Shown: positions 12,071 to 37,430 of the stretch, piece after piece
How the letters are laid out: every line of letters starts with the position of its first letter
Numbering within the stretch: position 1 is the first letter of the stretch
DNA from: Fidelibacterota bacterium MT.SAG.2
Lineage (GTDB): Bacteria > Fidelibacterota > SORT01
NCBI GenBank assembly: GCA_004402915.1
Contig: SORU01000011.1
Coordinates: 1 to 45,618 of the forward strand
Direction of reading: 5' to 3'
DNA length: 45,618 bases
Made by a program: the position numbers and the translations under genes
The notes under the pieces: model-generated
Seen by the model: the letters and a program-made list of their open reading frames with translations, nothing else
Told to the model about the DNA's origin: nothing
Database searches by the model: none

Positions 12071-13192
12071 ATGAAGTTTTCAATCGAGAGAGAGATAATT
12101 CATAAGGAGCTTCAGAGGGCAAATAGGGTAGTGCCTGTCAGATCTACTCTTCCAATTTTAACTTGTGTGTTATTAAGCGTTGAAAACTCAAAACTTAGAG
12201 TCTTGGCAACGGATATTGAAGTTACTATTAGTAGTGAAGTAGACGTAACTGATTCTGAGAATGGAACTGTTGCAATTCAATCAAAATTATTGAATGACCT
12301 GATTGGTGTTTTACCACAAGGAGAATTAACGATTAGTTCGGATGACAAGAATTTTGTAACAATTAAATCTTCAAGTGGTAGTTATAGTATTGCAGGTAAG
12401 TCGTCTGAAGATTTTCCAGCTGTGCCTACTTTGGAAAATGGTGAATCAATAAATATTGATAACGAAACGATGCACAGAATTATTGATAAGACCTCATTTG
12501 CTGTTAGCGCTGATATGCTTAGACCTGCGTTAACAGGAGTACTATTTGAATTTAATGATGAGAACTTAACGACAGTAGCTACTGACGGTCATAGGCTTGC
12601 AAAACTTACTATAAACAAGAATACAGGAATTAAAGAAGATAAAAGGATAATAATTCCTAAAAAGTTTTTGAGTCTTATCTTAAATGCGCTGTCAGGGAAT
12701 GAAGAAAACAGCTTCACTGCCACAGAAAATCATGTTATGATAACAATAGGAAGCACAAAATTCTACACGAGGATTATTGATGAAAAGTATCCTGATTATA
12801 ACAGCGTAATACCGTCTGAAAATGATAAAGAACTTAATGTTAAGGTAGAAGATTTTTTAGCGTCAGCAGTCAGGGTTTCAATTTTCGCTAACAAAACTAC
12901 ACAGCAAATAAAACTGACAGTTTCTAATAATAATATTAAGATTTCTTCTGCTGATCCTGAATCAGGCGGGTCCGGAGCAGAGGACATAGATTGTAAATAT
13001 GGTGGAGAAGACATAGAAATAGGGTTCAATTCTGAATATTTAAAAGATATTTTAAGACAGATAGATACGGAAGAGTTAATAATGAGCTTAAAGGCGCCAA
13101 TTAGCGCAGGATTGGTTTATCCAGCCGAACAGGCTGAAAATGAAGATTATACTATTCTCTTAATGCCGATTCGACTAACAGAAGAAGCGTAA
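12071..13192 (+). CDS. dnaN: DNA polymerase III beta subunit (sliding clamp)
   Basis: DnaN is the ring-shaped processivity clamp of the replicative polymerase. The 373-residue product has the standard length and three-fold repeat. Recognisable are the N-terminal LPILTCVLLSVENSKLRVLATDIEVTI-type segment (split here as a description, about residues 27-52), the central segment with VATDGHRLAK near residues 177-186, and the C-terminal ending LLMPIRL that forms the partner-binding groove. AAAAGGAA lies about 8 bases before the ATG. It opens the dnaN-recF-dciA-gyrB-gyrA run; recF follows after about 13 bp. Confidence 0.97.
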   Translation: MKFSIEREIIHKELQRANRVVPVRSTLPILTCVLLSVENSKLRVLATDIEVTISSEVDVTDSENGTVAIQSKLLNDLIGVLPQGELTISSDDKNFVTIKSSSGSYSIAGKSSEDFPAVPTLENGESINIDNETMHRIIDKTSFAVSADMLRPALTGVLFEFNDENLTTVATDGHRLAKLTINKNTGIKEDKRIIIPKKFLSLILNALSGNEENSFTATENHVMITIGSTKFYTRIIDEKYPDYNSVIPSENDKELNVKVEDFLASAVRVSIFANKTTQQIKLTVSNNNIKISSADPESGGSGAEDIDCKYGGEDIEIGFNSEYLKDILRQIDTEELIMSLKAPISAGLVYPAEQAENEDYTILLMPIRLTEEA

Positions 13193-13205
13193 CATAACCA
13201 CGGTG

Positions 13206-14281
13206 ATGCATCTTGAAAATTTGCGATTGATAAATTTCCGAAGTTATGAAAAATTTGAAACAGATTTCTCCGATAAAATAAATATTATCACCGGTAATAA
13301 CGGTGTAGGTAAATCTTCAGTTTTAGAAGCTGTTCACTACCTTTCATTATCAAAAAGTTTTAGATCAAATAGAGACGAAGAAGCAATACATTTCAATTCC
13401 GATCACTTTGTCTCTAAGGGAACGTTTGTCTCGGATGACGGGGTAAGGGAAAATATTTCGATCTCATTTTCCAAGAACGGTGGAAAGGCGATAAAAAGTC
13501 ATGGAAAATTATTGGAAAATTCGAGAGATCTGATCGGAAGACATCCTGTTGTTTTGCTTTCACCGGAGGATATTATAACTACAATAGGTTCCCCATCAGG
13601 ACAAAGAAAATTTATGAACATGACAATGTCTCAGGTAAATAAAAATCATCTTAGCCGGTTAATGTCGTATCGTGGTGTCCTTAAGCAACGGAACGCCGCC
13701 ATCAACATGGCAGCTTCCGGAAGACAATCTTACGAGAACACTCTCGATGCCTTAGAAGAGCAATTAGGCGAGCTATGCAGTTCTATATGGGAGGATCGGG
13801 TAAATTTTATTAACGAGATCTTCCCGGAATTTCAAAAGATATTCAATGACCTTAATGAAGGTAAAAAAGAAGGCACTATTGAATACCGTCCTTCGGTAAG
13901 CGGTACAAAAAACGAAATTATGGAAGTATTTAAACTAAGAAGAGCTAATGATTTTAATATGGGCTTTACTACAAAAGGGCTTCACCGCGATAAGCTTATC
14001 TTCAAGATCAATGATAGAGCGCTAAAAAAATATGGCTCTAAGGGTGAGAACAAATCATTTATGATAGCGCTGAGATTAACACAGGGCAAGTTTATAGAGA
14101 AAAAAACCGGTATTAAGCCGATATATCTGCTCGATGATGTGTTCATGGAGTTGGACAGAAAGAGAGCGATTGAAACGGTAAAATATATCAATGGAATCGG
14201 ACAGGTAATCATAACTACTACAAACTATGAAGAGTGGTCGGACAAGGTGGGATTTAAAGTTAACTTGATAGGTCTGTCTTA

Positions 14282-14282
<1 letters not shown>
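13206..14282 (+). CDS. recF: DNA replication and repair protein RecF
   Basis: RecF is an SMC-like ATPase that works with RecO and RecR to load RecA at gaps. The 358-residue product has the Walker A GNNGVGKS (about 30-37), the conserved LSPEDI segment followed by GSPSGQRKFMN, and the Walker B YLLDDVF near residues 307-313 followed by ELD. Length is normal. A GTG directly precedes the ATG (13203), so the start may be one codon earlier; neither has a good Shine-Dalgarno. The stop codon TAA shares a base with the ATG of dciA, indicating translational coupling. Confidence 0.96.
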
Positions 14283-16488
<2,206 letters not shown>

Positions 16489-16504
16489 GGGATAAATTTT
16501 AAGA

Positions 16505-18988
16505 ATGGCAGTAAATAGAGATAAGATATTACCAGTTGAGATAGTTGATGAAATGCGAAACTCGTATCTCGACTATTCTATGTCAGTAATCGTTTCAAGG
16601 GCACTTCCGGATGCGAGGGACGGGTTGAAGCCTGTTCATAGAAGAATACTTTACGGCATGGATGAATTGGGATTAAGAGCGAATAAATCCTTTAAAAAAT
16701 GCGCAAGAATTGTCGGGGAAGTCTTGGGTAAGTTTCATCCGCATGGTGACACCGCGATCTATGACTCTCTCGTAAGGATGGCGCAAGATTTTTCACTTAG
16801 ATATCCTTTGGTGAAAGGGCAGGGGAATTTCGGGTCTGTTGATGGAGACGGCGCGGCGGCGATGAGGTATACAGAAGCCAAGATGCACAAGATAGCCGAA
16901 GAGATGCTGCAAGACATTGATAAAGATACGGTAAAGTTTATTCCGAATTTCGACGATACGCTTGAAGAGCCGACTGTGCTCCCGACGCGATTGCCCCAGC
17001 TCCATATGAATGGAACAAGCGGGATAGCCGTAGGAATGGCAACAAATATCCCACCGCATAATTTGAGAGAAATTTCTAATGCAATAATAGCTATTATAGA
17101 TAATCCGGATATAGAGATAGAAGAATTACTGAAATTTGTAAGCGGGCCGGACTTCCCGACAGGCGGGATAATCTACGGCAAAAAAGGAATTAGGGATGCA
17201 TTTTTAACAGGCAGGGGAAGCATAAAAGTTCGTTCAAGGGTTAGCGTTGAAGTGTCGAAAAACGGCAGGGAATCAATTATTATCTCTGAAATACCATTTC
17301 AGGTGAATAAATCAAATTTGATTATAAAAACAGCAGACTTAGTGCGGGATAAGGTGATTGAAGGCATACGTGACATCAGAGACGAATCTGACAGAGACGG
17401 TATCAGGGTTGTAATGGATCTTAAAAGGGACGTTATTCCAGATGTTGTCATAAATCAGCTTTTCAAACACACCCAACTTCAGGATACCTTTTCGGTAAAC
17501 TTTATTGCCCTGGTGAACGGCGAACCAAAATTATTGAATCTTAAAGAATCGCTTCTTCCCTTCATAGGGTTTAGGCATGAGGTCGTATTAAGAAGAACAA
17601 AATTTGAGAAAAATAAAGCAGAAAACAGGGCGCACATACTTGAAGGATTGAAGATAGCTCTTGATAATATTGACGAAATTATAAAAATAATAAAGAAATC
17701 CGAGTCTCCCGAACTTGCCAGAACTAAATTGATGAAATCTTTCGATCTCTCAGAGCGTCAAGCGAAAGCGATTCTTGAAATGAGACTGTCCGCCCTAACC
17801 GGGTTAGAGCAGAAAAAAATTGTGGACGAGCTTAGTGCTCTGCTCAAGCTGATAGAAAAGCTCACTTCCATTCTTTCTAATAAAGAATTGCGTATGGAGA
17901 TAGTAAAAGAGGAGCTCATTGAAATAACTGAAAAATACGGTGACGATAGAAGGACGGATATCGTTGAAGATGAGGGTGAATTCTCTATCGAAGACATGAT
18001 CGCCCAGGAAGATATGGTGATCACCATTTCTCACAACGGATTCATTAAGAGATTCCCGGTCAGCGGCTTCAAAAGACAGGGGCGCGGAGGAAGAGGCCTT
18101 AAGGGGGCGTCAACAAAAGAAGACGATTATGTTGAACATCTATTCGTTGCTTCAACGCATCACCATCTTCTTATTTTTACGGATAGAGGAAAATGTCATT
18201 GGCTGAAAGTGCATGAAGTCCCTCAGGCTGGCAGGGCATCAAGGGGGCGTGCTATAATTAACATTCTTCAGTTAGAAAAAGATGAAAATCCACAGGCTTT
18301 TCTCGCTGTCAGTGAATTTGATGACGACCACTACATTTTGATGGCTACAGAACGCGGACTCGTGAAGAAAACGGTTTTATCCGCCTATAAGAGACCGATG
18401 AAGGGCGGTATATACGCGATAGATATCAGAGAGGGCGACAAGCTGATCGAAGCTCGATTGACCGACGGTTCAAACGATGTGATCCTTGGCTCCTTATACG
18501 GTAAGGCGATACGGTTCAATGAATCTGACGCTCGACCCATGGGTCGGAAAACGAGAGGCGTTCGCGGAATGAGGCTCCAGGATGACGTGGATAGGGTTAT
18601 TGGGATGATAGTGATAAAACGATCCGGGACAGTTCTCGCCGTCAGTGAAAATGGATTTGGCAAAAGAACGGGGATTGATGCCTATCCGCTGAGAAAAAGA
18701 GGTGGAAAGGGAGTTCTCACTATTCGTACAACGGAAAAAGTAGGAAAAATGCTTTCTATTAAAGAGGTGGTGGATACGGACGACCTGATGATTATTACAC
18801 AAAGAGGAATTATGATTCGTCAATCGGTATCCAAGATTAGATCTATCGGCAGGGCGACACAGGGTGTAAAACTTATAAGGCTTGACGAAAATGATTCTAT
18901 TGCATCTGTCACCCGGGTTATGGAAAAGGTTGGGAATAATGAAGATGAGAACAGCGAAGAAGCGCCTGATGCAGAACTCGAAGAATGA
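16505..18988 (+). CDS. gyrA: DNA gyrase subunit A
   Basis: GyrA is the DNA-cleaving and wrapping subunit. In the 827-residue product the catalytic Tyr is Y122 within [10 protein letters not shown], the same number as in E. coli. The quinolone-region residues read T83 and D87 in [10 protein letters not shown]; Thr at 83 is a natural variant in other species. The C-terminal beta-pinwheel is complete and carries the GyrA-box QGRGGRG (R to G at its second position relative to QRRGGKG), which marks gyrase rather than topoisomerase IV. A short acidic tail ends the protein. Last gene of the dnaN-gyrA run. Confidence 0.98.
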
Positions 18989-21257: not shown

Positions 21258-23084
21258 TTATATATCTTCAAGCGTGTGAACTCTCCCCGTATTTTGCTCT
21301 TGCAGCCAAGCCATTAATGGTTGAAAATATTCAAGCATGGCATTTGCCGAAAGATCGCTGCCGGTTTTTTCCCGGAGAAGTTCACGCCAGTCACCGCTTG
21401 CGCCTTTTTCGAGTATAGACCAAAGAAAACTGCCCACCTCTTTGCTGCCAAAATAGTTGGTTGCATGGGGATCTTGATTCAATATATTTTTCGCAATGTG
21501 ATTGTGCAGCTGAAAGAGAAGCATATTCGAAATAGCGTAATCATAGTATTGAGCGGCATCATTATTTATATGGGTTTTAGACGCTGCATCGTTATACTCT
21601 TCTCCCCTCTTGCCTGGCGGTACGATTCCTTGATACTTCTGTTTGAAATCCCACCATTTGGCATTGTAGTTATCCGGTGTGATTTCCCCGTTATACAGCC
21701 CCATTTCAAACATGGTCATTACACCACAAGACCAGGGGATAAATACTACATAATTAAGAGCCTCATACATCAGCGCTTCAATTTCGTTTATTTCACCACC
21801 TTCGGGAAGGAGCCCAATTGCTTCTACAAAAGGTTTCTGCATCGATGCTAAGCCGATAAGGCTGCCGATCGCTTCATGGTATCCTCTGTTCGCTCCGCCC
21901 CTCAGAAGCGGCGGAACGTTTTCATTGGTGTATGCCATGTAGTAATAAATATGTCCAAGTTCATGGTGAGTTGTTTCATACCATGATGGATTCGGCTCAA
22001 CACTCATAAGCGACCTGATATCGTTTTGGAGGTCTAAGTGCCAGGCAGATGCATGATTGTTTTTCTTGTATGTCGCATCCTCCGGAAGGGGATAAAGAGA
22101 CGATTTCTCATAAAAACTTGCCGGCAAAGTATCATATCCGAGACTTACGAAAAACTCTTCAGCCTGTCTAACTACCCACTCCGCGTCTTTATCAGCAAGC
22201 GCCGAAGTCAGGTCTAAGCCTTCGACCGTTACGAGCGCGGTCCAATCCTGTCCCCATCTGTTAGGAAGCCACTGAGCGGGAATCATCTCCGGTACCGGCT
22301 GACCGTATTTTTCGGCTAATTCGTATCTCCAATAAGTGTGAAGCTCCCGATACAAGGGTCTTAGTTCTCTGTTGAATTTATTCATTAGATCGGTCATCTC
22401 TTCAACTGTCATATCATAGTCGCTGACCTGATATTGAAAATAGTCATCATATCCGAGCGCTTGAACTGTAGAGTTCCGTAGATAAACGAGATTGGTTAAG
22501 CCATCCCGTAACTCGACACCTACCTCTTTTGAAGATGACCAGGCAGCGAGCCTCTCATCCATGTCGGTTGAAGATCTTAGAGTCTCGTCTATTTGGTTTG
22601 TTGTTACAGTTTTACCGTCGATCTTAAAGTCAAAACCATACAAGGTTTCAACTTGTGCCGTTTGAGCAGCGATCCGTTGCTTCACAAGCCCCGGTACTGT
22701 CTGCGGTGAATCAGCGGCGCCGTATAAAATAACTTCAAGTTGTTTTACCTGAAGTGGTTCAAGGTCTGTTTTTCTTTCAAGAAATTTCCTTGAGCGTTCT
22801 ATATTTTCTATGCTTCCCGTGAAACTTGCCATTTTCTCGTTTGCCACATTTGTTCTATGAGAGTTAACGGTATCTCCCTCAATTATCAAAGTATTAGACT
22901 GCCATTGAGCTTCGGCGGCCTCATAATAAAGAACCAATAGTGTTTCTGTATACGAGTCAATGTATTCTTGAGCTTCTTCGACAATAGCCGGAGAAGACAT
23001 ATTATCTTTTGTGTCAGCCCTATATTTGTCCGAACAAGAGATAAGGGCAATTGAAACAGCAAAAAGTATAAATATTTTTTTCAT
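21258..23084 (-). CDS. M2-family peptidyl-dipeptidase lipoprotein (angiotensin-converting-enzyme-like)
   Basis: A zinc peptidyl-dipeptidase of family M2, which removes C-terminal dipeptides from oligopeptides. The 608-residue product begins with a lipoprotein signal (ALISC, Cys 17), so it is secreted and membrane-anchored. Zinc ligands are in HELGH (H374, E375, H378) and the downstream GYHEAIG (E404), with the LRGGANRGYHEAIG context that is characteristic of ACE proteins. Length matches a single ACE domain. AGAGGA lies upstream of the ATG. Probably works in periplasmic peptide scavenging; the substrate is unknown. Confidence 0.9.
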   Translation of the reverse strand: MKKIFILFAVSIALISCSDKYRADTKDNMSSPAIVEEAQEYIDSYTETLLVLYYEAAEAQWQSNTLIIEGDTVNSHRTNVANEKMASFTGSIENIERSRKFLERKTDLEPLQVKQLEVILYGAADSPQTVPGLVKQRIAAQTAQVETLYGFDFKIDGKTVTTNQIDETLRSSTDMDERLAAWSSSKEVGVELRDGLTNLVYLRNSTVQALGYDDYFQYQVSDYDMTVEEMTDLMNKFNRELRPLYRELHTYWRYELAEKYGQPVPEMIPAQWLPNRWGQDWTALVTVEGLDLTSALADKDAEWVVRQAEEFFVSLGYDTLPASFYEKSSLYPLPEDATYKKNNHASAWHLDLQNDIRSLMSVEPNPSWYETTHHELGHIYYYMAYTNENVPPLLRGGANRGYHEAIGSLIGLASMQKPFVEAIGLLPEGGEINEIEALMYEALNYVVFIPWSCGVMTMFEMGLYNGEITPDNYNAKWWDFKQKYQGIVPPGKRGEEYNDAASKTHINNDAAQYYDYAISNMLLFQLHNHIAKNILNQDPHATNYFGSKEVGSFLWSILEKGASGDWRELLREKTGSDLSANAMLEYFQPLMAWLQEQNTGRVHTLEDI

Positions 23085-27568: not shown

Positions 27569-28501
27569 TTATTCGATCATATCCGATTCTAAGATATCCG
27601 CCATATTGATCTTACCTTCCTTCTGAAGCTCTTTAACTTTATCGACGATAGCCTGTTGGGCATTCTGCACCAACCTGCGCGGTTGAGGTCCCTCGACAAG
27701 CCTCAATTCGTCTTCGAGAATTATCTGAGCGCGTTCCGGTAGGTTATTATAAAGTTTATCTTTGAATTCCTGCGGTTGTCCCTTAAGAGCTAATGCTATA
27801 TCAGACGCCTCTATACTGCGAAGCAGTTCGCGCATAAGATTATCCGGTATCAACGAAAGGTCTTCAAATGTGAAGTGGCTTTTTTTCACATCCATTGCCA
27901 GCTGCGGATCTTCTTTTGAAAGCATATCCAAGACCTGCTTTTCGCTTTTCACATCAAGGTGATCGAGTAGCTCCGCTAATGATTCGCTTCCGCCTGTTGA
28001 GATTTTGTGGAATTTCGGCAGCCCGAGAGCTTTTTCCGCAAGATCGCTCGCAATACTTTCGATTCCTTCTAGCGGGATATCGACTAAATGACCCATTTCT
28101 ATCATTACCTGACCCTGCGTTTCCGGATCTAAGCGCGTAATAATTTTCGCTACCCTGTCGGCGGGGAGTTGAGCAAGCGCTATCGCAGATATTTTTGCAG
28201 TTTCCTCCCTCAACAATAGAAGAATTTGCTCATCCATTAAGTCGTTGAGGAAAGCGAAAGGATTTGCAAGATGCTCCTTACTCTTGACCATCTTTTCGGA
28301 CATAAAATTGAAATAAAATTCTTCAAGGACCTTCTTTCTGCTTTCAAAGCTAACATTGCCAATCTCATCCATCTTAGAACGAATTTTCATAATATCGGTT
28401 TCGTTCAGTGACTTGAAAAGTGGGCGCGCTAAATTGGGCCCCAATACCTTAAAAAGTATTGCTGCTTTTTCAAGACCGGAAAGTTTCGTTTCTTCAGCCA
28501 T
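27569..28501 (-). CDS. fliG: FliG-like motor switch protein
   Basis: FliG is the rotor protein that interacts with MotA to generate torque. All three FliG regions are present in 310 residues: FliG-N (LSGLEKAAILFKVLG, 8-21), the middle domain (about 95-175) and FliG-C (about 185-300). Charged torque residues align with E. coli FliG at a constant offset of 24: K240 (K264), R257 (R281), D264 (D288), E265 (D289), with R275 for R297. The usual EHPQ motif of the middle domain is not recognisable. A strong GGAGGA precedes the ATG, which overlaps the FliF-like stop by 1 bp. Last gene of the motor operon; no flagellar structural genes are in the window. Confidence 0.93.
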   Translation of the reverse strand: MAEETKLSGLEKAAILFKVLGPNLARPLFKSLNETDIMKIRSKMDEIGNVSFESRKKVLEEFYFNFMSEKMVKSKEHLANPFAFLNDLMDEQILLLLREETAKISAIALAQLPADRVAKIITRLDPETQGQVMIEMGHLVDIPLEGIESIASDLAEKALGLPKFHKISTGGSESLAELLDHLDVKSEKQVLDMLSKEDPQLAMDVKKSHFTFEDLSLIPDNLMRELLRSIEASDIALALKGQPQEFKDKLYNNLPERAQIILEDELRLVEGPQPRRLVQNAQQAIVDKVKELQKEGKINMADILESDMIE

Positions 28502-29682
28502 TATAATTCCTCCGCGCTCTCTTCTTCAGAGCTGATCCAATTGTTCAATATTTTAGTAGCAGTATCAGGCTTCCCGACGCTAAGCGTAATTATGGCTTGC
28601 CTTGTGTTTTTAAGATCTGCTCTATGTACATCACGTTCGAGTGCCGCTGCTCGCTGTTGAGCCTGCGAGGATTGAAGCGCAGCCAGTTTTTCTTCTTTAG
28701 CCGCAATGATTTCTGCCGGTGTTCCGAGCATTTGAACCTCGTCACTGCCGTTAGTAGGCTCTGCCGGGAGAGTGGGTTGATTTTTACTACTTCTTCCCCA
28801 GAAATAAGCTAATACAAGCAATACGATAAGTCCAAGAACCGCTCCTCCTATATATAGGGGTAGCAATCCTTCCGATTCACGTTGTTTATCTTCCAATTCC
28901 AGCATCCTGGCGGCGAGATCGCTCTCTGTTGTAATCGATATCGTGTCAGACATAGAAGCTTCAACGGCTAATTGCGCAATTGCCTCACTTTGAACAAATG
29001 AGGTTGTAACGATATCCAAAATGTCGCCGCGCTGATAATCTAATCCCGTTGCCACTTGCACGACAGGTCTTACAGAATCCAATACTTTTTGACTAACGCC
29101 GTCTTCGAGCATGACGGTAACCTCAAGTCTCAATATCTCCGGTATTGCCGGGGAAGTTCGTTCGATAGAAAAACTACGCAAAGTCGAAGGTCTTTCATCT
29201 GATATAGATTCATCTAATTCAATTGTTGAAGGTTCTTCCTTTTCTGCATCGGTCTTAATTGGTGTGGATCTTTCTTCCTGCTCCTGTGTATCGCCCAATA
29301 TTTCAATGTCCGGAAAACCGGGAAGAACAGGATCAAATTTACTGATTGGAGGAAGCAGGTCTTTCTCCGGAATTCCGGTTGGAGCTGAATCGGCTGTTCC
29401 CATCTGAGAAATATCAGTGTCTTTTGCGTTTTTCGCGGGCTCCCAAATTTGTTCAGAGCGGTGAGCGGGTGTAAAGCTGATGTCCGCCTTTACGCTTACA
29501 AAAAATCGCTCATCTCCTAAGGCTTGTTTTAAGGCGTTTTCAGCCTGCGTGCGCAGGTGATTTTCAAGCATGATCCTTTGAGCGAGCTGAGATTGCGCAT
29601 TTTGCGGCTGCACAATCGATAGCGGTGCAAGAGTAATTGTCAATAACGCCGTTAACAAACTATGTTTAAAAAGTATTTTCAT
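28501..29682 (-). CDS. Shortened FliF-like protein (RBM3/beta-collar, one TM, FliG-binding tail)
   Basis: A 393-residue protein resembling the C-terminal half of the MS-ring protein FliF. It has a signal peptide or N-terminal anchor (about 1-29), then a strand-rich segment ERFFVSVKADISF (58-70), a long acidic, Pro-rich linker (about 71-180, the position of the beta-collar), a second strand segment with ATGLDYQRGDILDIVTTSF (211-229) that matches FliF ATGLDxxRGD, one transmembrane helix (273-294), and a cytoplasmic tail ending KPDTATKILNNWISSEEE (371-388), which matches the FliG-binding end of FliF. RBM1 and RBM2 of a normal 520-560-residue FliF are absent. Lies 5 bp after motB and overlaps fliG. 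Confidence 0.8.
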   Translation of the reverse strand: MKILFKHSLLTALLTITLAPLSIVQPQNAQSQLAQRIMLENHLRTQAENALKQALGDERFFVSVKADISFTPAHRSEQIWEPAKNAKDTDISQMGTADSAPTGIPEKDLLPPISKFDPVLPGFPDIEILGDTQEQEERSTPIKTDAEKEEPSTIELDESISDERPSTLRSFSIERTSPAIPEILRLEVTVMLEDGVSQKVLDSVRPVVQVATGLDYQRGDILDIVTTSFVQSEAIAQLAVEASMSDTISITTESDLAARMLELEDKQRESEGLLPLYIGGAVLGLIVLLVLAYFWGRSSKNQPTLPAEPTNGSDEVQMLGTPAEIIAAKEEKLAALQSSQAQQRAAALERDVHRADLKNTRQAIITLSVGKPDTATKILNNWISSEEESAEEL

Positions 29683-29687
29683 TGGAT

Positions 29688-30410
29688 TTACCCTATTGTT
29701 AGAAAGATTATTTCAATTCTTCTGTTTGCGGCTCGACCCTCTGCTGTATCGTTTGAATATCCGGGTTTGGGCCAGGTGTCGGCATAGCCGATAGCTGAAA
29801 GCTTTCCTTGTCCTTCAGGCGGAACAACTCCCCCAATATTGATAAGATATCTGACAGTAGCGCTTGCTCTTGCAGTCGAAAGTTCCCAGTTGGATTTAAA
29901 TAGGCCGCCTTCACGAAGCGGAACATTGTCGGTGTGCCCCTCAATCGCTATTGGAAACGGTATATCATTTTGAAGCGCAGCATTTATTTCGGGAGCCAAC
30001 TTATTAAGCAGATTTTTTGCCAGATCGGATAATTCAGCCGACCCGGTTTTAAAGGCAACATCACCCTTAAAGCTGATATTTACCCCCCTTTTGCTGGAAC
30101 TCACCGTGACATTTTCCTGCATATTCTGTTCAAGAACGATATCAGTAACTTTTTCCATAATAGCTGCAAGATCAAGTTGGTCTCTTTCAACAGGAGAAGC
30201 TCCCATAACCTCAGAGACGGCATCTGCGAATGCCCTGATCTTCACCGGATCTAAAGTCGACATCGAGAAGAGCAGGATAAAAAATGTCATCATTAGAGTA
30301 ACCATATCACCATATGTAAGAAGCCACTGTTCTGTTTCGTCGGCGGGCGGTATTTTTTTGGGCCGCTTCTTCCTGATAAGTTCAGGATTGATATTTGAAG
30401 TATCTGCCAT
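29688..30410 (-). CDS. motB: MotB-like stator protein with OmpA peptidoglycan-binding domain
   Basis: MotB anchors the stator to peptidoglycan and carries the proton-accepting Asp. In this 240-residue product a basic N-terminus (RKKRPKK) precedes the single transmembrane helix with the motif TYGDMVTLMMTFFILLF; the Asp is residue 35. A linker follows, then the OmpA-like domain: EGHTDNVPL, NWELSTARA, and AANRRIEI. The ATG at 30410 is chosen; an in-frame TTG at 30416 would add two residues, and neither has a visible Shine-Dalgarno. Located 25 bp downstream of motA. Adjacent FliG and FliF-like genes favour a MotB-type role over ExbD/TolR, which lack this OmpA domain. Confidence 0.93.
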   Translation of the reverse strand: MADTSNINPELIRKKRPKKIPPADETEQWLLTYGDMVTLMMTFFILLFSMSTLDPVKIRAFADAVSEVMGASPVERDQLDLAAIMEKVTDIVLEQNMQENVTVSSSKRGVNISFKGDVAFKTGSAELSDLAKNLLNKLAPEINAALQNDIPFPIAIEGHTDNVPLREGGLFKSNWELSTARASATVRYLINIGGVVPPEGQGKLSAIGYADTWPKPGYSNDTAEGRAANRRIEIIFLTIG

Positions 30411-30435
30411 GGTCAATTTTAGCCGTTATTACGGG

Positions 30436-31227
30436 TTACTCTCCTCCACCTTCAGCATCACGTTCCCATTCACTCGGAGGAATGAATGAATTGAGCTTCT
30501 CACGCACAACAAGGGGATGCTTTTTATTGTACAGCATTGCCACGCCTTCAATTACCATATTCTGAAGAACTGTCTGTTGTTCAATTCTTGATTTGAATTT
30601 TTCAGCCATTGGATTAAAGAATAAATTTGCCAATAGAACGCCATAAAAGGTAGTTACAAGAGCAACTGCCATGTTCGGACCGATAGTTTTGGATGGATCG
30701 CTATCTCCGCCCATACTGACAAGCATACCGATCAGACCTATAAGAGTTCCCATCATACCGAATCCGGGAGCGAATTTCGCCATAGTTCTTAATATGTTTT
30801 CTTCCCACTTTTCACGAATCTCTCTATTATCAATACGTGATTCCATTATATCACGAATTTCAGGTTCTGTATAACCATTAATGATCATCTGAATACCATC
30901 TTTCAAAAAGGGGTTGCTGACAGAGTCTTTACTCTTTTCAAGTTCAGATACACCCATACGGGCAGTGCGGGAAATCTCCACAATTTCGTTAACATAAGGT
31001 CCTAATGTATCAGTTCCGCCCTTTTTAAAAATAATAAGAGTAACGTTCATTATTCTCAATATTTCCTTCAGCGGAAATGCTAAAAGCGTAGCCGCAATAG
31101 TGCCTCCGAGTACGATTTCGATACTCGGTAAATTGTAAAATGATATCATAGGCGCTGCACCTGTTGCAAGTGCGTGTACGATAACCCCTACGCCGGCAAG
31201 TATTCCTATTAAAGATGCAATATCCAT
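30436..31227 (-). CDS. motA: MotA-like stator protein
   Basis: MotA forms the pentameric proton channel around MotB and pushes on FliG. The 263-residue product has four hydrophobic helices (about 3-22, 34-54, 153-173, 184-205) and the large cytoplasmic loop between the second and third. In that loop, SRTARMGVSELEKS (86-99) supplies the Arg/Glu pattern that contacts FliG in E. coli (R90, E98 region). P154 in KFAPGFGMMG corresponds to the conserved Pro 173 at the channel. The C-terminal cytoplasmic helix is present. AGAGGATAAC precedes the ATG. It is 12 bp after the upstream beta-barrel/TPR gene. Confidence 0.95.
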   Translation of the reverse strand: MDIASLIGILAGVGVIVHALATGAAPMISFYNLPSIEIVLGGTIAATLLAFPLKEILRIMNVTLIIFKKGGTDTLGPYVNEIVEISRTARMGVSELEKSKDSVSNPFLKDGIQMIINGYTEPEIRDIMESRIDNREIREKWEENILRTMAKFAPGFGMMGTLIGLIGMLVSMGGDSDPSKTIGPNMAVALVTTFYGVLLANLFFNPMAEKFKSRIEQQTVLQNMVIEGVAMLYNKKHPLVVREKLNSFIPPSEWERDAEGGGE

Positions 31228-31239
31228 TTTGTTATCCTC

Positions 31240-32619
31240 TCACCTCCTGAATGAAGTTACTCGTAAGCGATTTTCGCCCATAGCTCGTAATATATTTCTG
31301 ATGTCATCATACTCCGGGTCCAGCTGAAGCGCCACATTCCAGTTCATTACGGCTCTTTCTGTATCCCCTAATTTATAAAAAATTGAGCCGCGTCTCGCAT
31401 AGGCTAATGCAAGATTCGGATTAAATTCTATCGCCGTCTCAACTTCCTCCAGTGCAGACCGGTATTGACTTGAGTAAAAATACCTTAGTGAACGTGAAAG
31501 ATGTTTTAGCGCGGAATTTATGTTTTGCTCAAGAGCAAACCTCTCAGTTTTTACTATCTGTACCGAATCTTGCAGAACATTAACTCTCTGCCTGAGCATT
31601 GACGCCAGATCGTTTAAGGTCTCAATCTGTTTGCCGGCAAAATTAATCGAGTCACGCAAAGACTGTACCTCTTCCGGAGACATGTAGCCTGATGGAACCA
31701 ACAGCCCCGGCTCTCCTTTGATCCCGGGTGGCAAGTCTACTCTGCCAGCTGCCGGTAAGCCTATGGGTCTCTCAAGGATCTCTTCGGGTATCTTTCTCGG
31801 AAAGTTTATTGATAGCCCCATTGCGATTCCCGGAAATTCCGCCTCGGTTGTTTTTCCAAAATTAATAATTTTCTCAATCTGCATAATTCCGAGATTTACG
31901 GTATAGTCGCGAGTTAACGGAAGTTTCGTGCCAATGTTCATACCCTTCCCGTCATATTCGCCAAGAATTCTGAGTCCGCCGATCTGGGGAAGAAAAGCTG
32001 TCTTGAGATCAAAGCCGGCAAAAATGCCTATTGCCGAGGATGAAGCAGTGGCAACGTCTGCTGCAAACTTATCAGTTCCAATTCCGATGTGCCACCGGAG
32101 GCGATAGAGCTCAAATTCCTGTTCTCGGCTAACAATTCCATAGAACGAAAAATCACCCAGCTTCGACGTTAATATTTGCTCAGACGATGGGTCTGTAGGA
32201 TTGAGTTTTGATTCTGTAAATATTATGTTGGTTACACCGGCTGCGACAGACATGTTTTCGTATGTAAAAATGTTCCTCTGTAGGGATATTCCGAATTCCG
32301 GAGGAGCTTCCACAACTGCTGCTGCGCCGGCTGTTGTATCTGCCTCAGGCGTAAATTTTTTCAGAGCGGTAATTCCAAATCGGTACTTTGAAGATGGTTC
32401 AAAATCAAAATATATTCCTTGCGATGATTGAAAAGGAGAAAAATTGTTCAATTCTACACCAAAACCGAATTTTAAAAAATCTGGACCTATGAGATGGCTC
32501 GATGTTGGAATGTTTATCATCTCCCCAAATGTTGAAAAGCCAACCCTGGTTTGACCCAAGGCGGTAGATGGCGCTACTACGATCATCGCGATAACAACTA
32601 TAAATAGTAATCTTTTCAT
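31240..32619 (-). CDS. Outer-membrane beta-barrel protein with C-terminal TPR repeats
   Basis: I do not recognise a named family. The 459-residue product has a signal peptide (about 1-22, ending ALG), then roughly 260 residues of alternating short amphipathic strands (typical of a beta barrel, e.g. YRFGITALKKF), a proline-rich linker near residues 290-310, a predicted coiled coil (about 325-365), and two TPR-like repeats at the C-terminus (SALEEVETAIEFNPNLALAY, then GDTERAVMNWNVALQLDPEY). It sits between the YbgF-like lipoprotein genes and motA in an operon with short gaps. An outer-membrane docking partner for the motor is a reasonable inference, not shown by sequence. Confidence 0.75.
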   Translation of the reverse strand: MKRLLFIVVIAMIVVAPSTALGQTRVGFSTFGEMINIPTSSHLIGPDFLKFGFGVELNNFSPFQSSQGIYFDFEPSSKYRFGITALKKFTPEADTTAGAAAVVEAPPEFGISLQRNIFTYENMSVAAGVTNIIFTESKLNPTDPSSEQILTSKLGDFSFYGIVSREQEFELYRLRWHIGIGTDKFAADVATASSSAIGIFAGFDLKTAFLPQIGGLRILGEYDGKGMNIGTKLPLTRDYTVNLGIMQIEKIINFGKTTEAEFPGIAMGLSINFPRKIPEEILERPIGLPAAGRVDLPPGIKGEPGLLVPSGYMSPEEVQSLRDSINFAGKQIETLNDLASMLRQRVNVLQDSVQIVKTERFALEQNINSALKHLSRSLRYFYSSQYRSALEEVETAIEFNPNLALAYARRGSIFYKLGDTERAVMNWNVALQLDPEYDDIRNILRAMGENRLRVTSFRR

Positions 32620-32646
32620 AACAATTCCATTAAGCTAACGAGATCG

Positions 32647-33660
32647 TTAACCTTTTTCCATGGTTGAAATCAGTTCTCTTGCCCGCTTTGTATATGCGCT
32701 TCGCGGGTATTGAGCGATCAATGTTTTAAATTGCTCTATGGCGTCTTTTTTCAAGCCTAAATGTTTTAAGGCTTTGCCCTTCATAAGGATCGCAGAGTCC
32801 TTCTTGTTTGAATTATCAAAAGCCAAAACTTTTTCAAACGCCGAGGCTGCTTTGCTGTAAAACTTCAAATGGTAATAACACTCACCTATCCAATATTGAG
32901 CATTGTCGGAGAGGCTGTTACTCTTATCTTCGGCCAGCAGGGAATTGAATTTCCTTATTGCCGAATCGAACTTTTTAAGGCGGTAATTCGTAAGGGCGGA
33001 ATCATATCTTTCTTTATACGAAAGCTTTGCCGGCGAAGGTTTTGTAATAATCTTTCTCTTCTGCGATGGCTTATTAGGCTTTTTCACTCGGGTATTACCG
33101 GTGTTGACTTTTCTTTCCAAATCTTGAAGCCTGCTGACGAGCATTAAATTTTCACTTCTCAGCGCAGCAAGATCGCCCTTCATGCTGTTTTCAATTTTTG
33201 ATATTTTGGATTCTATATCCGCTATCGTCTTTGATTTAGTGTTATTCTCTTTGATTACCGGTTCGTCTATACCCCATTTTATCATGAGATCCTGACGAAT
33301 ACTCTCGAGCATCGGATCGGCGACATACAACGTACTCGGATTGATCCTTCGATTATCCTTTTGTTCGATCCCTACACCAAGGTCGTGCATCGATTCGGCA
33401 TACAATGAGCTATTGGAAGAGGTTTTGCGGTTAAAATTCGATATTTCCTCAAGGGGTATCAGCGGGTGCGGAATGAATTCATCATCTTCTAAAAACGAAT
33501 CCTCGTTGCCGCCCTTCCCGGTCTCTTCGTAAATTTCAGTGTTTTCCGGCGCAATAAAATTATAAGGAGTTGCAATAAGTTCTTTTTTTAGCGACTGGGC
33601 GCCACCGCATCCGAGGAAAATGAGCAATCCAAAAAGAACAGAAATAAATTTGTATGTCAT
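32647..33660 (-). CDS. CpoB/YbgF-like TPR lipoprotein (larger paralogue)
   Basis: A 337-residue lipoprotein (lipobox FLGC, Cys 18, next residue Gly, so outer-membrane sorting is expected by the +2 rule). The N-terminal half is low-similarity. A coiled-coil segment follows (about 145-190), then a basic linker, then three TPR-type repeats at the C-terminus starting YDSALTNYRLKKFDSAIRKF and including NAQYWIGECYYHLKFYSKAA. This pattern matches CpoB/YbgF of Tol-Pal systems. It is followed by the beta-barrel gene 27 bp on, and preceded 1 bp away by a shorter paralogue. Role as a periplasmic connector is inference. Confidence 0.8.
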   Translation of the reverse strand: MTYKFISVLFGLLIFLGCGGAQSLKKELIATPYNFIAPENTEIYEETGKGGNEDSFLEDDEFIPHPLIPLEEISNFNRKTSSNSSLYAESMHDLGVGIEQKDNRRINPSTLYVADPMLESIRQDLMIKWGIDEPVIKENNTKSKTIADIESKISKIENSMKGDLAALRSENLMLVSRLQDLERKVNTGNTRVKKPNKPSQKRKIITKPSPAKLSYKERYDSALTNYRLKKFDSAIRKFNSLLAEDKSNSLSDNAQYWIGECYYHLKFYSKAASAFEKVLAFDNSNKKDSAILMKGKALKHLGLKKDAIEQFKTLIAQYPRSAYTKRARELISTMEKG

Positions 33661-33661
33661 A

Positions 33662-34354
33662 TTATTGTATCCCGTTTCTTAAATCAATTACACGGCTGAT
33701 AAGTTCGCTTTCCGGATAACTGTCAATGAATGACTGAAAAGCCGCATATGCCTGGGGCTCTTTTTTCAATTTTAACAGACAAAGTCCGATTTTGAACTGA
33801 GCATAATCATTTTTATTGCTTTGAGGGTAAGTCAAAACGATTTCGAATGCACTAAGCGCTCTTTTGTAATTTCCTAAGCCGAAATATGCCTCTCCGATCC
33901 AGTATTGAGAATTATCTGAAAGATTATGCGAGTCATCAACGTTGATCAGCTGCTCAAATCTTCTGATAGATTCTTCATAATTGCTGTCAAAATAATATGT
34001 CAAGGCCGTTTTGTATAGACCCTCTATATTTTCGGAGTTTAACTCGGCAGAAGCTGTTTCGGTCGAGTTGGTCGTGATATATCTGTTGGAATAATTTTCT
34101 AATGTGCTTAATCGAGAGCTTCTCTCTTCAATTCTCTTTTGAAGGGTTTGATTTAATTGTCCTGCAAGTTTTAGATTTTCCTTCAACCCTATTATCTCCG
34201 ATTGGAGTATGATCACAGAAGAGCGGAGATCCATAATCTCTACATTTTGAGAGACCAAATCGTTTTGCGATGTTTGCGGTTTGGCGCTTGGGTTTGAACT
34301 ACCACAACCGAGTAATGATGCTGAAAACAGGAATATTGTAATTATCTTACTCAT
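33662..34354 (-). CDS. CpoB/YbgF-like TPR lipoprotein (smaller paralogue)
   Basis: A 230-residue lipoprotein (lipobox LLGC, Cys 17). After a coiled-coil region (about 35-90), three TPR-type repeats begin at YKTALTYYFDSNYEESIRRF and include NSQYWIGEAYFGLGNYKRAL, almost the same pattern as in the neighbouring larger protein, so the two arose by tandem duplication. Trimer-forming N-terminal coiled coil plus TPR tail is the CpoB/YbgF layout. Its ATG lies 8 bp inside the preceding gene and its stop is 1 bp from the next start region, consistent with coupled translation. Confidence 0.8.
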   Translation of the reverse strand: MSKIITIFLFSASLLGCGSSNPSAKPQTSQNDLVSQNVEIMDLRSSVIILQSEIIGLKENLKLAGQLNQTLQKRIEERSSRLSTLENYSNRYITTNSTETASAELNSENIEGLYKTALTYYFDSNYEESIRRFEQLINVDDSHNLSDNSQYWIGEAYFGLGNYKRALSAFEIVLTYPQSNKNDYAQFKIGLCLLKLKKEPQAYAAFQSFIDSYPESELISRVIDLRNGIQ

Positions 34355-35339
34355 ATTCCTCCCAATCTATAGCATAAGAATAGCCAATAAATGTTCCTAT
34401 AGTTCGAGGAATATAAATCTCAAATGTTCCCGTAGCGCCCGGAGGAAGGGTGGTGTCAGTAGTTACGCCGCTTGCATAGGTATATTGAGCTCCATTTACA
34501 AATGTAGTAAAAGTTTCGGTGTTTCCCGACCAATCTTTTCTGATGATGAAATTTATTTTCACAAAGTCAGCGCGTTTGTTGCCTGTGTTTTTAAGAATAC
34601 CGTTGAAAATTGTATTACCGCTTCTGTCTTTTTTCTCTTTGATCGGGCTTTCTATAACAACGTTAGCCAGTCCCCTCTCAGTAGATGAGGGTGAATAACC
34701 ACCCGTGGTCGACCTTGCCGCGTTTGGGCTGCTCGATAGCGGAATCGGTTTTGAAATTAGTGGATCGGTCGCCGAAAATTCAGGCCTATTTTCTAATATT
34801 CTGCTTATTGAATTCCTTTGGAGAACCAAACTTCCGATAAGAGTTTCGATCTTAACAAGCCGTTCGTCCTGGTAAACAACATTTCCGTTGAAGATCGTCC
34901 CGTTAGTCAGAACAATTTTCTTATTGAAGATACTTTGCGGGTCACGCCACATCTCGGAGCGATTATTAAGATTAGTAATTTCTGAATTTAAATGAGCTAT
35001 TTCTGCCCGGAGTCTTTTAACTTCAAATCGTATTTCAGATATATCTTGTGCCGTTGATCTGGCGCCGACGCGTTGTGTTACTAAACCACCGCTCGAAGAA
35101 GGTTGAATTGCTCCTGTTTGTTGACCAGCAGCTCCCCCTTGAGTCTGCCCCGCAACTACTTGAACATCGCCGCTTCCCTGCTCGGTTTGAAATAGAGGAG
35201 TTACTTCCTGCCCGTCTCCATTATCATCGCCACTTATTCCGAATGGCTTTAATATAGCGCCGCACGCTGTCAAAGTGAGAACAAGATAGATCGTAAAGAG
35301 AGTTGATGCGATTTTTTGTGTGTACTTGGTTTTGTTCAT
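34347..35339 (-). CDS. Lipoprotein with coiled coil and C-terminal FxLYD-like domain
   Basis: First gene of the motor operon. With the ATG at 35339, which has GAGG nine bases upstream, the product is 330 residues with a lipobox LTAC (Cys 26); an ATG at 35363 would add eight residues ahead of the signal peptide and lacks a Shine-Dalgarno. A Gly/Gln/Ser-rich stretch follows, then a coiled coil (about 95-125), a small beta-rich segment (about 133-180), and a C-terminal Ig-like region (about 215-330) with ILKNTGNKRADFVKINFII, matching the FxLYD pattern. Such domains occur in envelope lipoproteins. Function unknown. Confidence 0.7.
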   Translation of the reverse strand: MNKTKYTQKIASTLFTIYLVLTLTACGAILKPFGISGDDNGDGQEVTPLFQTEQGSGDVQVVAGQTQGGAAGQQTGAIQPSSSGGLVTQRVGARSTAQDISEIRFEVKRLRAEIAHLNSEITNLNNRSEMWRDPQSIFNKKIVLTNGTIFNGNVVYQDERLVKIETLIGSLVLQRNSISRILENRPEFSATDPLISKPIPLSSSPNAARSTTGGYSPSSTERGLANVVIESPIKEKKDRSGNTIFNGILKNTGNKRADFVKINFIIRKDWSGNTETFTTFVNGAQYTYASGVTTDTTLPPGATGTFEIYIPRTIGTFIGYSYAIDWEEYE

Positions 35340-35620
35340 ATTTATCCTCAAAGTCGTAAACATATTCCGGTTAGAAATTTTTACTGTTTGGAATATATTT
35401 AGTTGGACAAGGGGAAGTCAAGAGAAAATCAACAAATAAATAAAGAGACAGAAGAAAAAATGCAAAAATAAGTTGCACCTATACAATATAATGTGTTTAA
35501 TAAAATAATATATCCATATCATGCAATGGTGCATTTAATTAATTGTTGGGGAATTGACCGATTTTTAAAGAAATTGACTTTTAAACATACTTCCGATCAG
35601 CTTAATGAAAGATAAAGATG

Positions 35621-36509: not shown

Positions 36510-37430
36510 ATGATAAATATGTGTGTATTGCCGGCAAGAAGAAGATTTTATACGATATTTACTTTAATTTTTCTGTTAGGATGCAGTTCTGAGCAAGAGG
36601 AGATAAACACGATGAAACATGCGATTCAAAACAGGCTTGTATCAGCTCCTTCGGGCGCAGAAGTCTCCGTAGCTTATGAAAATCTGCAAACAGATATCAA
36701 GATGTTCATTAATGCAAAAAAACAGATGCACGCTGCGAGTACCTATAAGACAGCGCTGATGGTTGAAGTATACAAGCAGGCAGCAGAGGGAAAGATCTCT
36801 TTAACAGATTCGATAGATGTAATTAATTCATTCAAGAGTATAGTCGATAATTCTGAATATGCGATGGATATCGGCGAAGATTCCGATGATTCTGTTTACG
36901 AGCTTATAGGTAAAAGGGCATCCTACTACGATTTAACATACCAGATGATAACGGTCTCGAGCAATTTGGCGACCAATCTGTTGATTAATGAGGTTGGGGC
37001 TAAGAATATAATGAAAACACTTAAAAGTATTGGCATTAAAGAGATGCAGGTACTTCGTGGTGTCGAGGATTTAAAAGCTTATGAGTTAGGATTGAATAAT
37101 ACAACGAATGCGGAGGATATACTTAGATTGATGATAGCGATAGCAAAAGATGAAGTAGTTTCACCGTCAGCATGTGCGGAGATGAGAAAGATACTCTTAG
37201 CGCAGGTTCACAATTCAAAGATTCCGGCTAAACTTCCCAAAGAGGTGAAGGTGGCACATAAGACAGGAAGTATCACGAAAATAGATCACGACGTTGCAAT
37301 TATTTATCCCCCGAAAGGCCCTGTTTACGCACTTGTCGTTCTCACCAGGGGTATTAAAGAACATAAGGATGCTGAAGAACTGATTGCGGATATTTCTAAA
37401 ATAGTTTATGACAGAGTGGCAAAAAAATGA
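36510..37430 (+). CDS. Class A beta-lactamase-like serine hydrolase lipoprotein
   Basis: A 306-residue lipoprotein (lipobox LLGC, Cys 25) with the penicillin-recognising serine hydrolase fold. Motifs: STYK (77-80, nucleophile Ser and general-base Lys), SSN (150-152, in place of SDN) and KTG (251-253). The omega-loop region is short; E186 and E192 are both possible counterparts of the deacylating Glu166, so true beta-lactamase activity is uncertain. Many environmental proteins of this type are probably peptidoglycan-related or have unknown substrates. AGGA precedes the ATG by six bases. Operon with the upstream lipoprotein gene. Confidence 0.82.
   Translation: MINMCVLPARRRFYTIFTLIFLLGCSSEQEEINTMKHAIQNRLVSAPSGAEVSVAYENLQTDIKMFINAKKQMHAASTYKTALMVEVYKQAAEGKISLTDSIDVINSFKSIVDNSEYAMDIGEDSDDSVYELIGKRASYYDLTYQMITVSSNLATNLLINEVGAKNIMKTLKSIGIKEMQVLRGVEDLKAYELGLNNTTNAEDILRLMIAIAKDEVVSPSACAEMRKILLAQVHNSKIPAKLPKEVKVAHKTGSITKIDHDVAIIYPPKGPVYALVVLTRGIKEHKDAEELIADISKIVYDRVAKK

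Follow-up and report, generated by a model that had tools for sequence, protein, structure and literature searches.

What does a flagellar-type motor drive when its genes share an operon with outer-membrane proteins? The question is raised by eight genes of Fidelibacterota bacterium MT.SAG.2, whose phylum, Fidelibacterota, is also called Candidatus Neomarinimicrobiota or SAR406. They lie on contig SORU01000011.1 (assembly GCA_004402915.1), of which positions 1 to 45,618 were analysed and are called the window here. We propose that the operon codes for an ion-driven rotary motor in the cell envelope, one that is independent of any flagellum and acts on the outer membrane rather than on a filament, and we give this reading a probability of about 0.72. 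Gene content and sequence conservation suggest a rotary envelope machine that has not been described before. Its torque unit would be of an already known kind; what would be new is a flagellar rotor and stator that work without a flagellum and are tied to the outer membrane.

A sequence-only reading of the window, made without database searches, had placed eight minus-strand genes at 27569-35339, with neighbours that overlap or are separated by gaps of up to 27 bp. The open reading frames bear this out except at the upper end, since the first ATG of the leading gene is at 35363. The genes, in order of transcription, are as follows.

34347..35363, minus strand: LYD, the first operon gene; a secreted protein with a lipobox-like LTAC here, a coiled coil, a small Leptospira-type N-terminal-like domain and a weak FxLYD match.
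33662..34354, minus strand: TPR1, a lipoprotein with a coiled coil and tetratricopeptide repeats (TPRs), CpoB/YbgF-like (TIGR02795, 65 bits, below the cut-off of 90.1).
32647..33660, minus strand: TPR2, a lipoprotein with a coiled coil and TPRs, CpoB/YbgF-like (TIGR02795, 68.6 bits, below the cut-off of 90.1).
31240..32619, minus strand: OMP-TPR (OMP below), an outer-membrane beta-barrel followed by a linker, a helix and C-terminal TPRs, as read from alignments, an AlphaFold2 model and Foldseek.
30436..31227, minus strand: MotA-type stator subunit (Pfam MotA_ExbB, 1.2e-28; MotA/PomA in the PDB, 1e-46).
29688..30416, minus strand: MotB-type stator subunit with a TTG start (Pfam MotB_plug, 7.7e-19, and an OmpA-like peptidoglycan-binding domain, 1.8e-14).
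28501..29682, minus strand: reduced FliF (Pfam YscJ_FliF_C only, 4.8e-11).
27569..28501, minus strand: FliG-type rotor protein (Pfam FliG_N, 3.9e-20; FliG_M, 1.4e-9; FliG_C, 4.5e-30).

The Pfam domains confirm the earlier identification of MotA, MotB, a shortened FliF and FliG, and TPRs were matched by Pfam in three operon proteins. The names given to the other proteins hold in part. LYD, described as an FxLYD-like lipoprotein, does resemble that family, at 14 bits against a cut-off of 23 bits; its lipidation is not established, a crude lipobox pattern being present in 20 of 109 orthologues. For the two CpoB/YbgF-like lipoproteins the TPR similarity stands, while their 65-69 bits stay below the threshold of the TIGR02795 family.

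The operon is a conserved unit. Loci were gathered through FliG and through OMP, giving 88 (80 distinct) with all six core genes. The core order LYD-OMP-MotA-MotB-FliF-FliG is kept on one strand in 88/88, with LYD the first core gene and OMP upstream of motA each time; the order is therefore not due to chance. Between LYD and OMP, genes longer than 150 codons, mostly for TPR proteins, number 0, 1, 2 and 3 in 12, 41, 34 and 1 loci, respectively. Since their number varies from 0 to 3, the TPR lipoproteins are accessories of the operon, and what recurs in relatives is the six-gene core rather than the full eight-gene order. LYD orthologues were found in 34 in-phylum loci. Clusters of flanking genes occur in 42 loci at most, and the unit was taken to include none of them.

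The torque-generating residues of the stator and rotor are retained. The ion-binding Asp37 of MotB is present in 100% of 105 orthologues. Among 113 MotA orthologues, R90 is conserved in 100%, E97 in 99%, and P154, T193 and P206 in 100%. In the 83 operon FliGs, K240 is invariant (100%) and position 257 is K in 77% and R in 22%. We take MotA R90 and E97 to be the Arg90 and Glu98 sites of flagellar MotA, and FliG K240 and position 257 to be E. coli K264 and R281, respectively, the latter from a motif-based mapping to E. coli numbering. On these alignments, the MotB aspartate and the equivalents of MotA Arg90/Glu98 and FliG Lys264/Arg281 are all the same or like-charged in 99-100% of the proteins.

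The rotor proteins have diverged from their flagellar counterparts elsewhere in the sequence. A first sign that they are not ordinary flagellar orthologues is that both fall below the cut-offs of the NCBIfam flagellar equivalog models (fliG 160 of 227 bits, fliF 24 of 130). The FliM-binding motif EHPQ is well kept in 15 flagellar FliGs of the phylum (E 100, H 93, P 100 and Q 100%), whereas the 83 operon FliGs keep E (100%) followed by mixed residues, which agrees with the missing FliM. FliF is shortened to an N-terminal signal or anchor, RBM3 with the beta-collar, one transmembrane segment (about 270-298), a coiled coil and a FliG-binding tail (356-384). Its sole Pfam family is YscJ_FliF_C; the N-terminal YscJ_FliF family gave no match in it. 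The structural model shows a long beta hairpin (60-81, 169-193), an alpha/beta domain and one transmembrane helix, and its 18 Foldseek matches in the PDB at E < 1e-3 are all FliF, mostly RBM3/collar rings. The tail follows a flagellar-like pattern that ends in tryptophan (G370 83%, P372 92%, W382 97%). FliF proteins of relatives are longer, with a median of about 518 residues and an extra coiled coil. The portions of FliF that enclose the export gate (the RBM1/RBM2 housing) are missing, as expected for a rotor with nothing to export.

Each of the four motor proteins has flagellar homologues, so the operon might be a leftover of a lost flagellum, or an extra stator and rotor set that serves an existing one. 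By inspection, no rod, hook, filament or export genes were recognised among the open reading frames of the 45.6 kb window, as the sequence-only reading had noted; the rod, hook and filament genes were not searched genome-wide. A complete flagellar set lacking a second FliF or FliG is not what this bacterium appears to hold, as neither FlhA (export gate) nor FliM was found in its genome (1.69 Mb in 118 contigs, 67% complete). FlhA, FliM and a second FliG are likewise missing from G001, a genome of the same genus that is 96% complete; it and other relatives make up for the incompleteness of the source assembly. In a set of 61 related genomes, the source included, FliM was found in 15, all of them with flagellar genes.

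A wider comparison separates the operon from flagella. Searching a genome collection with the OMP alignment gave 140 relatives, and the operon recurs across the phylum. OMP was then used as a marker (E < 1e-25) in 392 genomes, of which about 245 belong to the phylum and about 147 to other phyla; it serves as a proxy for the operon, and lay within it wherever regions were inspected. The marker is present in 164 genomes of the phylum versus 1 of other phyla. FlhA is present in 42 phylum genomes. The two occur together in 33 genomes, as an accessory of flagella might; the marker occurs without FlhA in 131, and FlhA alone in 9. Flagellated relatives carry the operon FliG besides a separate flagellar one, both types being found in G004, G007, G010, G012 and G025.

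The phylogenies agree with this separation. In an unrooted maximum-likelihood tree of 83 FliGs, which gives no order of origin for the operon and flagellar types, 37 operon FliGs form one clade (99/98, recovered in all bootstrap trees) apart from the flagellar FliGs, which were taken from the same phylum and from twenty genomes outside it. The operon MotAs also form one clade (100/98), in a tree where the flagellar MotAs of the phylum are represented by two only. Families cluster together inside the operon FliG clade, and inheritance of the operon therefore looks vertical. Since this clade lies outside the flagellar FliGs, the operon FliG is not a flagellar remnant. The separate FliG and MotA clades, the active residues conserved at 99-100% without decay, and the co-occurrence with true flagella lead us to reject a relic of a lost flagellum. 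Neither operon loss tracking flagellar loss nor pseudogenes in non-flagellated genomes were seen. Together with the order kept in all 88 loci and the lost FliM-binding motif, this makes a flagellar relic or accessory of any kind very improbable. Genes and conserved residues thus give good support to the independence of the rotor and stator from the flagellum and to their link to outer-membrane proteins, as the earlier reading had suggested; the output of the motor remains an inference.

Two irregularities of the distribution may be mentioned. The single genome outside the phylum with the marker (G325, 1.3 Mb, locus L151) has LYD-OMP-MotA up to the point where its contig stops; horizontal transfer, misplacement or a sister lineage could account for it. 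Within the phylum, the marker is missing from the streamlined genomes of about 0.9 Mb (family f6, genus g8) and from genus g17 of family f5 (the family that holds G018), where it has apparently been lost.

MotAB-type motors are also used in defence, and a Zorya-type anti-phage system was weighed. The operon MotB does match the ZorB models (7e-21), as any MotB would. Conversely, no ZorA, ZorC, ZorD or ZorE match was obtained among the operon proteins scanned, and PADLOC gave no match for MotA or for four other operon proteins. FliG and FliF are not Zorya parts, and phylum-wide vertical inheritance is unlike that of a defence island. With ZorA and effector matches missing from the operon proteins scanned, we reject this candidate and consider its probability negligible.

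The connection of the proposed motor to the outer membrane would depend on OMP. Its barrel of about 12-13 strands (residues 47-274) is followed by a disordered linker and by a long helix (residues 315-382) of 68 residues, roughly 100 Å in the AlphaFold2 model (predicted local distance difference test, pLDDT, 79). The C-terminal TPRs (residues 386-458) carry the near-invariant LALAYARRGSIYYKLGD..RATINWNLAL. In Foldseek, the nearest folds are the barrels FapF, OmpG and NanC, matches that tell the fold class only, and also TPR arrays. Conservation in the alignments is strongest at the TPR end, which should therefore face a conserved partner. We propose that this partner is the FliF collar or LYD.

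On this basis, a working scheme can be outlined. MotA and MotB would form the stator, probably with five and two copies, a 5:2 arrangement assumed by homology to solved MotAB, and MotB would anchor it to the peptidoglycan. Ion flow would turn MotA, which would push the C-terminal domain of FliG. FliG would be seated on the cytoplasmic tail of the reduced FliF ring, so that the periplasmic collar of FliF would rotate; the rotor joint is intact, in that the FliF tail keeps P372 and W382 and FliG has its FliG_N domain. Without the FliM/FliN switch, rotation would probably be one-way and outside chemotaxis control. The RBM1/RBM2 housing, export gate, rod and filament would not be part of the machine. 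Instead, the FliF ring may engage the TPR arm of the barrel protein and deliver torque to the outer membrane, while LYD and the TPR lipoproteins would link ring and OMP in the periplasm. With the flagellar motor the machine would share homologous stator and rotor proteins, the torque-site residues, the RBM3/collar fold of FliF and the FliG-binding tail. It differs in that the operon has no export gate, no FliM, no switch motif and no N-terminal YscJ_FliF domain, in co-transcription of the motor with LYD and an outer-membrane barrel/TPR protein, and in the separate FliG and MotA clades.

What the motor acts on may be related to the type IX secretion system. The translocon protein SprA was found in 60 of the 61 genomes, including the source (G000:C1 28668-34442, outside the operon). 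GldL and GldM gave no match above cut-off in the 61 genomes, in a search set that held no positive control. The near-universal SprA and the undetected GldL and GldM make a role in powering surface transport attractive, and the operon motor may explain what energises outer-membrane transport in this phylum. The type IX GldLM motor, with the GldKN ring, is an ion-driven motor with an outer-membrane-attached ring (PMC11205867). The operon motor would be alike in its working, as an ion-driven 5:2-type stator proposed to turn such a ring in genomes that have SprA; the proteins are different, and GldLM has no FliF/FliG rotor. That the operon motor replaces GldLM and turns an outer-membrane ring which moves or exports surface proteins is possible, with the odds leaning against it: the operon contains no type IX gene, and SprA is kept in operon-free genomes. 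Moreover, a published description of cultured Fidelibacter multiformis IA91 calls it non-motile and states that its wall and shape depend on muropeptides supplied by other bacteria (PMC11652737). Its genome is probably G018, which has the full operon (locus L045) and in which FlhA and FliM were not found; if so, swimming is excluded as the motor output there.

Alternatively, the motor might do a Tol-Pal-like job, in which it would pull on the outer membrane or remodel it, for instance during division, and the TPR lipoproteins would take the part of CpoB. Many operon copies include such CpoB/YbgF-like lipoproteins, and OMP together with the peptidoglycan-binding MotB would span the envelope. 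Both machines would be ion-driven inner-membrane motors near the peptidoglycan. TolB was not credibly found in the 61 genomes (weak matches of at most 27.6 bits in 14/61, none in the source genome), so this job may be vacant. For the same reason, the classical Tol-Pal partner of CpoB-like proteins is lacking, and of the CpoB/Tol-Pal connection drawn in the sequence-only reading only generic TPR similarity is left. Membership in Tol-Pal proper can be rejected, given the missing TolB and a YbgF match below cut-off. A Tol-Pal-like machine of other make is unlikely. The TPR genes are optional, with none in 12/88 loci, the operon has MotA/MotB rather than TolQ/TolR, Tol-Pal does not need a FliF/FliG rotor, and some lineages, streamlined ones included, lack the operon.

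As to the output itself, secretion or the movement of surfaces or cargo, in connection with the type IX translocon, seems plausible at somewhat less than even odds. Maintenance of outer membrane and peptidoglycan, a job like that of Tol-Pal, is rather less probable, and the same holds for other outputs such as uptake or mechanosensing. Some observations weigh against the envelope motor as proposed. In the FliG torque helix, acidic residues are partly shifted, and its acidic pair is only partly kept in the phylum. Confidence in the FliF model is moderate (pLDDT 68), and the lack of a positive control for GldL and GldM has been mentioned. Finally, SprA is kept in lineages without the operon (e.g., G009, G022 and G026); retaining the translocon therefore does not always call for the motor, and the link between them is not obligatory.

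No described system of this composition was found in the open-access literature, most subscription papers and preprints being outside the coverage, which accords with the earlier reading. The Agl-Glt gliding motor of Myxococcus is not known to have a FliF or FliG rotor, unlike the operon motor. The two are alike in the non-flagellar use of a MotAB-family stator, which has been described for Agl-Glt (PMC9120999). A survey reported that 11% of non-motile species have a rotor protein without filament proteins, and suggested an alternative function (PMC12199754). The survey names no system; the operon described here is a defined one, a single transcription unit with stator, rotor and outer-membrane partners, and it occurs in a widespread phylum with a cultured member. 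The question of rotor proteins in non-motile species thus has a concrete, conserved and testable system. A FliF/FliG rotor that is not tied to a flagellum is also relevant to the evolutionary assembly of the flagellum.

Related arrangements occur elsewhere. In several loci, a FliF-like periplasmic part, a transmembrane segment and the M and C domains of FliG are fused in one protein, often followed directly by MotA-MotB. Such fusions were seen in other phyla (L152 7840-9501, L155 6829-8316, L154 3-2225, L156 7823-9778 and L159 6807-8324) and in the same phylum (L057 4010-5410 and L052 10780-12309). Upstream of the L152 fusion lie a PorV/UPF0164-like barrel and a protein that weakly matches Por_Secre_tail, a neighbourhood that favours a type IX-like role; a barrel-plus-TPR protein lies upstream of the L155 fusion. 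Some of the other-phyla genomes with fusions have FliG but no FlhA. Because of long branches in the FliG tree, the fusion proteins are not placed in the operon FliG clade with certainty. The occurrence of the fusions beside MotAB in other phyla suggests that non-flagellar FliF-FliG-MotAB motors may be more general. That they form a widespread rotary module, phylum-wide here and as fusions elsewhere, and drive type IX secretion or gliding as forms of outer-membrane transport in bacteria without GldLM, is a doubtful extension.

The remainder of the window consists of housekeeping genes (yidC-mnmE-mnmG-mfd, SurA-like foldases and dnaN-recF-gyrB-gyrA) and unrelated genes, named partly by inspection. 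The dnaN-recF-gyrB-gyrA cluster, recognised by inspection at 12071-18988, places the operon about 10 kb from the likely replication-origin region; dnaA was not recognised among the open reading frames of the window. A class A-type beta-lactamase family protein (Beta-lactamase2) with a lipoprotein-like signal is encoded at 36510-37430, and a lipoprotein-like Peptidase_M2 protein of the angiotensin-converting-enzyme family (350 bits) at 21258-23084.

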